Below, piece after piece: positions 43,416 through 44,590 of a DNA stretch of 64,000 bases; within the stretch, counting starts at the first letter, position 1, and each line of letters opens with the position of its first letter. Below the pieces are notes generated by a model. The model was not told the origin of the DNA. It worked only from the letters and a program-made list of their open reading frames with translations, and ran no database searches. The position numbers and the translations under genes are program-made. The DNA is from Pseudovibrio exalbescens DSM 16456 (lineage in GTDB: Bacteria; Pseudomonadota; Alphaproteobacteria; Rhizobiales; Stappiaceae), in the NCBI RefSeq assembly GCF_000422785.1, contig NZ_AUGS01000001.1, positions 434,001 to 498,000 on the forward strand. The letters are read 5' to 3'.

Positions 43416-43439
43416 TCCGGTTTCGGACCAGCTTGTTTA

Positions 43440-43461
43440 GGGGCCCTTTGGCCCCTTTTTT
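43440..43461 (+). terminator. Rho-independent terminator after DUF3126
   Basis: GGGGCC/GGCCCC stem (43440-43445 and 43450-43455), loop CTTT, then six T. Confidence 0.93.
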
Positions 43462-43529
43462 ATATCTGACAGCCAATTGCATGGGGCTGAAAGTTTGTTT
43501 CGGCGTTATTTGCCCAGCGGGCCTTTATG

Positions 43530-43546
43530 TGTCCCAAAATGGGACA
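43530..43546. promoter_or_regulatory. Perfect 17-bp palindrome, probable activator-binding site
   Basis: TGTCCCAAAATGGGACA, with 7-bp arms and a 3-base centre. Its centre lies about 101 bp upstream of the -24 element of the sigma-54-like promoter at 43639, the usual position of an enhancer-binding protein site. It does not match the NifA spacing (TGT-N10-ACA) or the NtrC consensus. Confidence 0.6.
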
Positions 43547-43638
43547 TTTGTGCTTTTCTGTTCGTGTAACATCTCACTCCGCCGCCTTTAAAAATCACCT
43601 ATACCTGCGGTTTTGTGTAGTAGCGGCACAATTTTCTC

Positions 43639-43654
43639 TGGCATAGGCTTTGCT
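43639..43654 (+). promoter_or_regulatory. Sigma-54 (-24/-12) promoter candidate
   Basis: TGGCAT-N5-TTGC-T, with GG and GC exactly 10 bases apart as the RpoN consensus requires. It would start RNA near 43665, about 30 bases before the small membrane protein at 43694. Confidence 0.6.
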
Positions 43655-43693
43655 TAACTTTTCGTTAGGAGTTGGTCCTGGCTGGGAGTTGAG

Positions 43694-44011
43694 TTGGTGG
43701 TTCATGAATTATTTGTTGCGGCATTTCTTTGTGTTTCGGGTTTTGTAAGCGCTGGTATTCTCTCAAGTTTTTATCAGCTTGTTACCGGTGAGCCGCCGAA
43801 GTTCAGAGTGCCGTTTGATAATGCGCTGAAAGCGACACTCTCCATGATTTTTGTTTTGATGATTGGGCCGTTTTTGCTGATGCGAAGCGGTCTTCAACTG
43901 TATCGTGTTGAAGGACGACCTTTCGGCTGGTTGATGGCGTCTGCGGTGCTCTCTTGTTTATGGAGTGTGCAAACTGGCCTTTTCATCGTGTATGTGGCCC
44001 TTGTACTTTGA
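43694..44011 (+). CDS. Small membrane protein of unknown function (DUF6949-like)
   Basis: 105 residues with three hydrophobic helices (about 5-27, 48-65, 79-103). It may belong to the DUF6949 group seen in Hyphomicrobiales, which I recall only weakly; no function is known. The start is TTG at 43694 or GTG at 43697, both close to GGGAG. It is preceded by a sigma-54-like promoter and a palindromic site, and followed after 45 bases by the gamma carbonic anhydrase gene. Confidence 0.7.
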   Translation: MVVHELFVAAFLCVSGFVSAGILSSFYQLVTGEPPKFRVPFDNALKATLSMIFVLMIGPFLLMRSGLQLYRVEGRPFGWLMASAVLSCLWSVQTGLFIVYVALVL

Positions 44012-44056
44012 GCGCCATTAGGAAACCATGGTGCCGCTGTTATCCATGGAGGGGCT

Positions 44057-44590
44057 ATGACCGTTTATGCACTTGATGGCGTGAAGCCAACACTACCGTC
44101 TTCGAATGAGTTTTGGATTGCCCCGAGCGCAGAGGTAATCGGCCATGTTCGGTTGGACGAGGAAGCCAGCGTTTGGTTTGGCGCTGTTCTGCGGGGGGAC
44201 AACGAACTTATTTATGTTGGTGCGCGCTCGAATATTCAGGATGGGGCTGTACTGCATACCGATCCCGGTTGCCCACTCACGATCGGCACAGGGTGTACGA
44301 TTGGCCATAAGGCAATTCTGCATGGCTGCACGATTGGTGACAATGCTCTGATCGGGATGGGGGCTACTGTGCTCAATGGCGCGCAGATTGGTAAAAACTG
44401 CATTATTGGCGCCAATGCCTTGGTACCTGAAGGCAAAGTTATTCCTGATGGTTCTCTCGTGGTTGGCATGCCTGGAAAGGTCGTGCGTGAGTTGAGCGCC
44501 GCCCAACAGGAAAGACTTCAGTTGTCAGCGGATGTTTATGTCGCGAACTGGCGTCGCTTCAAGGCAGGCTTGTCCATTATTGAGGAATGA
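44057..44590 (+). CDS. Gamma carbonic anhydrase family protein
   Basis: 177 residues of left-handed beta-helix hexapeptide repeats ([27 protein letters not shown] split over the centre), with zinc-ligand histidines in VLHTDPG and GHKAILHG. Family members are YrdA/CaiE-like; many lack measured carbonic anhydrase activity. GGAGGGG lies 4 bases before the ATG. Possibly co-transcribed with the small membrane protein upstream. Confidence 0.92.

Follow-up and report, generated by a model that had tools for sequence, protein, structure and literature searches.

A conserved sigma-54-type promoter upstream of DUF6949 in Pseudovibrio exalbescens, with a palindromic candidate enhancer and a CtrA-type box

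The window, a stretch of 64,000 nucleotides from Pseudovibrio exalbescens DSM 16456, carries a 17-bp palindrome and a sigma-54 -24/-12 element between a DUF3126 gene with its terminator-like site and an open reading frame of 105 codons (Table 1). Re-reading of the window confirmed the sequences and coordinates that a preliminary description had given for the two elements, including the GG-N10-GC spacing of the promoter, and 92 bases separate the palindrome from the T of TGGCAT. The box listed third in Table 1 directly adjoins the 3' side of the -12 element. No sigma-70-like promoter is listed in 43420-44100, which is weak evidence because shuffled sequences average only 0.5.

Table 1. Features of the DUF6949 promoter region, in window coordinates
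Feature	Position	Strand	Remarks
Terminator-like stem-loop and T run behind the upstream DUF3126 gene	43439..43456	+	
Palindrome, 17 bp, TGTCCCAAAATGGGACA	43530..43546		putative P0001 enhancer; conserved upstream of many family orthologues
Sigma-54 -24/-12 element TGGCATAGGCTTTGC	43639..43653	+	GG at 43640-41, GC at 43652-53, N10 between
CtrA-type box TTAACTTTTCGTTAG (TTAA-N7-TTAG, one mismatch)	43654..43668	+	over the start predicted from the -12 element
DUF6949 gene, 105 aa, three-helix	43694..44011	+	TTG start; GTG at 43697 equally possible
Gamma-carbonic-anhydrase-like hexapeptide protein	44057..44590	+	possibly co-transcribed with DUF6949

The protein of 105 residues matches the Pfam family DUF6949 (E = 2e-28), and its AlphaFold model consists of three long helices with a mean pLDDT of 94.9, which judging from the sequence probably lie in the membrane. 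Together with the hexapeptide match of the following gene, these results bear out the earlier account of a three-helix protein and a gamma carbonic anhydrase downstream of the promoter. The fold does not inform on the function of DUF6949, because the best PDB match to the model had E = 1.8, and DUF6949 is mentioned by none of the papers in the literature collection searched. Relatives of the protein include those of Stappia, Hongsoonwoonella and Pseudovibrio; matches are present in 64 of 81 relatives and, in an evenly drawn sample of the class, in 11 of 289 genomes (own genome counted), while none was found in Caulobacter vibrioides, used as a control. The gamma-carbonic-anhydrase-like gene lies downstream on the same strand at 58 of the 59 loci compared (some genomes twice); at L081 it is about 2 kb away and at L082 it was not found.

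For the analysis of conservation, regions of about 300 bases upstream of DUF6949 were compared for 63 of the 64 matches, 45 from the same bacterial family and 18 from other families; genome G030, whose match has an internal stop and lies near a contig end, was left out. The pattern [CT]GGCA[CT]-N5-TTGC is found upstream of 41 of the 45 family orthologues, covering all seven genera, and in 4 of the 18 regions from other families. When the spacer was varied from N0 to N11, the other lengths gave at most one match in the family and none elsewhere, and spacers N3, N4 and N6-N11 gave none in the family either. The genome of P. exalbescens contains one rpoN gene, as well as activators with the GAFTGA motif: ten matches to the Sigma54_activat model were found, of which six are strong (at least 180 bits), and five of these six loci encode GAFTGA. 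The exact-spacing conservation, the single rpoN gene and the six strong activator matches support the proposed RpoN promoter with an upstream activator site.

The words by themselves are less telling. The perfect palindrome occurs once in the 4.16 Mb of the genome, but allowing one mismatch yields 9 places versus 12 for a reversed-pattern control, so that the word is not enriched. TGGCAYN5TTGCW was counted 10 times against 5 for its control, and YGGCAYN5TTGC 93 times against 45. Rarity in one genome is therefore weak evidence; the original observation is true, but one-genome counts are insufficient and conservation decides.

In the family, the palindrome TGTCCC-N5-GGGACA matches at 10/12 or better in 24 of the 45 DUF6949 upstream regions, from three of the seven genera, whereas 59 permuted half-sites averaged 1.1 and peaked at 7. 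The contrast is small at 9/12 or better (33 of 45 versus a permuted maximum of 27). Among all 4096 half-site words with an N5 center, TGTCCC ranks second at 11/12 or better (13 of 45), behind GTTAAC alone; at 10/12 it ranks eighth, and each of the seven higher words is at most one letter from GTTAAC. Conservation of the palindrome, which the preliminary description had named as a check, is seen for the family as a whole but not at most loci of the genus label or beyond the family: 8 of 13 same-genus upstream regions have no match even at 9/12, six of these eight retaining the -24/-12 element, and outside the family there is no enrichment (2 of 18 at 10/12 or better, with another permuted word reaching 4 of 18). 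Because the word is not enriched elsewhere and the -24/-12 element is present in only 4 of 18 regions there, the combination appears to be mainly a family trait. At 13 of the 45 family loci at least two palindromes are present at 9/12, spaced 19-20 bases apart and ending 55-94 bases before the -24 element.

The word that heads the ranking at 11/12, GTTAAC-N5-GTTAAC, is found in 33 of the 45 family upstream regions and contains TTAA-N7-TTAA, which we take to be the CtrA box consensus. TTAA-N7-TTAA occurs exactly in 42 of the 63 upstream regions and in 14 of 25 genera, compared to at most 3 of 63 for any other spacer from N0 to N15; with one mismatch allowed the numbers are 55 of 63 and at most 31. 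The box in P. exalbescens itself has one mismatch. Its position relative to the promoter varies among relatives: family loci outside the genus label mostly have it about 15-17 bases before the start-codon region, and several loci that bear the label have it some 30 bases 5' of the -24 element. CtrA is encoded in the genome (425 bits at a cut-off of 350). The preliminary description had missed this box, through which CtrA would probably act on the DUF6949 promoter, as it had missed the repeated palindromes and the candidate activator treated below.

Which activator could read the palindrome? Of the six strong activator loci, only one has a 10/12 match to the word shortly upstream of its gene, namely P0001 (G000:C6:113390-114910), an NtrC-family response regulator with GAFTGA that by its resemblance we take to be, and that probably is, of the TacA type; none of the 25 best-scoring NCBIfam models for P0001 reached its cut-off. 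The other four GAFTGA loci are by eye presumably NtrC-like, FlbD-like and, in two cases, LuxO-like, and the strong locus without GAFTGA presumably NtrX-like. The LuxO-like activators are L008 and L009 (G000:C10 and G000:C3), and close relatives of the former occur patchily across the family.

P0001 promoters were compared for 56 of 57 orthologues, 36 from the family and 20 from outside (G057 was left out, as its match starts at residue 58). Of the first 30 orthologues, 28 have a match of at least 9/12 at a distance of 48-68 bases ahead of the point where the protein match begins. At this threshold the word is present in 31 of 36 family promoters (permuted maximum 17) and 10 of 20 outside (permuted maximum 6); at 10/12 or better the numbers are 15 of 36 (permuted mean 0.56, maximum 4) and 5 of 20 (mean 0.32, maximum 2). 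Among 4096 palindromic words, TGTCTC ranks first and TGTCCC second at 10/12 or better. The word is shared by the promoter of the activator and the DUF6949 target, although the P0001 sites are weaker, since none of the 36 family promoters reaches 11/12 (rank 71). By eye, many P0001 promoters have a TTTAC word about 20 bases upstream, so that the site would overlap the -10 region, which suggests autorepression. From these sequences we infer that P0001 binds the palindrome and regulates itself.

Orthologues of P0001 are present in 57 of 61 genomes and absent from G011, G051, G055 and G065. Three of these four also have no DUF6949 match; the remaining one, G055, has DUF6949, and both the palindrome and the -24/-12 element are missing there. 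Of the 57 genomes that carry P0001, ten showed no match to DUF6949, and P0001 must therefore have other roles.

We also searched for further places where the palindrome stands before a sigma-54 promoter. Of the eight further genomic copies that deviate from the palindrome at no more than one position, six overlap mechanically called open reading frames of at least 100 aa, some of which may not be genes; at two of these (L210 and L211) YGGCAYN5TTGC is found within 400 bases, with the palindrome on its downstream side. The palindrome at L003 lies in a gap and that at L212 precedes a small open reading frame, presumably for ribosomal protein L36, in both cases with no YGGCAYN5TTGC within 400 bases. 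Nowhere else in the genome does a palindrome with up to one mismatch lie within 400 bases upstream of YGGCAYN5TTGC, and on inspection of the eight places we rejected other sigma-54 targets of the palindrome in this genome. Similarly, among the ten TGGCAYN5TTGCW places only that of the window has an upstream palindrome over 10/12 by a loose consensus.

A composite scan for the palindrome plus the -24/-12 element in 81 genomes gave 14 places, 10 at DUF6949 and 4 elsewhere, and in 87 genomes 18 places, 10 at DUF6949 and 8 elsewhere; reversed-control composites gave one place and none, respectively. DUF6949 is the one locus that recurs widely in these scans, which may have missed targets with weaker sites. 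Two pairs of like sequence, L130/L134 and L137/L138, make up four of the eight places outside DUF6949 and are possibly further targets, or plain sequence identity.

Taken together, we favor, with a probability of roughly three in four, a sigma-54 promoter of DUF6949 at which the palindrome would serve as an enhancer for P0001, with P0001 also binding at its own gene and CtrA modulating the promoter. Alternatively, the sigma-54 promoter is real and the palindrome is read by some other enhancer-binding protein, or by a repressor, in control of both DUF6949 and the P0001 gene. Shared sites indicate co-regulation and are silent on which protein binds, and the genome has four other GAFTGA activator loci to choose from. 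However, none of the five other strong activator loci has the word at 10/12 or better, and in a control set of LuxO-like loci (30 minus 5 P0001 orthologues, one of the remaining 25 coming from the own genome and one having a shortened upstream region) the word is present in 3 of 25 at 9/12 or better and in 1 of 25 at 10/12 or better. Furthermore, one of the LuxO-like activators has close matches (at least 58% identity) in 4 of 24 other family genomes, compared to 57 of 61 for P0001. Autoregulation of P0001 is the simplest reading of the shared word, and we regard a different reader as unlikely.

That the -24/-12 match and the palindrome are chance words in front of an ordinary or CtrA-driven promoter would agree with their counts in the own genome, where they are not rare enough, and with the CtrA-type box being the element found in most genera (14 of 25). 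On the other hand, chance hardly accounts for an exact -24/-12 element in 41 of 45 family orthologues next to zero at spacers N3, N4 and N6-N11, and the missing sigma-70-like promoter, weak as this point is, also speaks against it; we consider this explanation very improbable. Even less credible is that the palindrome is the terminator hairpin of the upstream gene. A terminator scan does list 43529-43547 with its tail as terminator-like, but the site directly behind the DUF3126 gene (Table 1) is the stronger one, with 7 pairs, 6 of them GC, followed by TTTTTA. Moreover, the palindromes of relatives mostly have no T runs after them (by eye) and in many relatives lie several hundred bases past the DUF3126 gene.

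The three elements found by computation, their conservation and the word shared with the P0001 promoters are the basis of the preferred mechanism, in which binding, direction of regulation, phosphorylation, timing and the TacA name are inferred. The RpoN promoter would drive DUF6949 and, possibly by read-through, the gamma-carbonic-anhydrase-like gene. P0001, presumably in its phosphorylated form, would bind the palindrome and contact the RNA polymerase-sigma-54 complex at the -24/-12 element via DNA looping, leading to open-complex formation. It would also bind the matching palindrome in its own promoter, probably repressing itself. CtrA, bound at the adjoining box, may tune this promoter; in the simplest case it would block the start until CtrA is cleared.

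The arrangement proposed here resembles that of NtrC at glnA in its 17-bp dyad with an N5 center, in the distance of roughly 100 bp from the enhancer to the -24 element and in an activator that represses its own promoter, as P0001 probably does. The NtrC site is TGCACC-N5-GGTGCA, whereas the half-site here is TGTCCC, and the NtrC-like locus of the own genome does not have the word at 10/12 or better. NifA sites read TGT-N10-ACA, and the palindrome reads TGT-N11-ACA. The earlier suggestion of an activator other than NifA or NtrC is supported by TGTCTC and TGTCCC being the leading words at 10/12 or better in promoters of a different NtrC-family regulator, P0001.

Sinorhizobium meliloti belongs to the Rhizobiales. 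A genome-wide list of its RpoN promoters, with TacA among seven activators, offers a comparable set of such promoters in an alphaproteobacterium; according to the excerpted text, targets had been identified for NifA, DctD and NtrC only, and as far as that text goes no TacA target was therefore known there in 2013 (PMC3616915). In Caulobacter, staR and spmX are described as TacA targets (PMC7010744), and of four activators of this kind FlbD and TacA are said to have GAFTGA (PMC10274813). CtrA is stated to activate transcription of the TacA/SpmX pathway (PMC2877005), and tacA, staR and spmX are listed among the genes that decrease on loss of cckA function (PMC12421884). In these sources the ShkA-TacA and CtrA circuit resembles our locus in its sigma-54 promoters, a GAFTGA activator of the NtrC family and a link to CtrA (PMC7010744, PMC10274813, PMC2877005). 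It differs in that DUF6949 was not found in C. vibrioides and that here the CtrA-type box is at the target promoter itself; P0001 is likened to Caulobacter TacA by resemblance. Literature searches on TacA, ShkA, Sinorhizobium, Brucella with CtrA, Pseudovibrio and the half-sites gave no printed TacA recognition site among the papers and passages listed, and a wider one, on activators and comparative genomics, yielded no paper.

If P0001 is of the TacA type, the locus would give an activator present in 57 of 61 relatives searched a site (TGTCCC-N5-GGGACA), a target gene and a site of autoregulation. It also connects the uncharacterized DUF6949 family with RpoN and, probably, with CtrA, so that the role of DUF6949 becomes testable. 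A more speculative version, which we hold only tentatively and think rather doubtful, is that a TacA-type activator has DUF6949 as its one dominant conserved target in the family, with CtrA acting on the same start site to form an AND-NOT switch. Such a switch would fire once CtrA declines while the activator is phosphorylated, and DUF6949 would be an unrecognized membrane factor of the cell cycle (G1-to-S) in a part like that of SpmX or StaR in Caulobacter.

Several variations in the intergenic regions of relatives were seen. Upstream of DUF6949 at locus L097 (genome G029), a second dyad, TGTCCC-N10-GGGACA, follows the N5 palindrome, and the spacing of the half-sites may therefore be flexible. 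At two loci, L016:2064-2804 (-) and L078:1921-2664 (-), DUF3126 and DUF6949 are separated by a divergent open reading frame of about 247 aa, and many other relatives have a gap of similar size; the palindromes there may therefore lie between divergent genes and serve both. Finally, in several genera CTTGACC stands directly 3' of the -12 element (L046, L047, L050 and similar loci, by eye), where it may act as the -35 box of a second promoter that overlaps the first.
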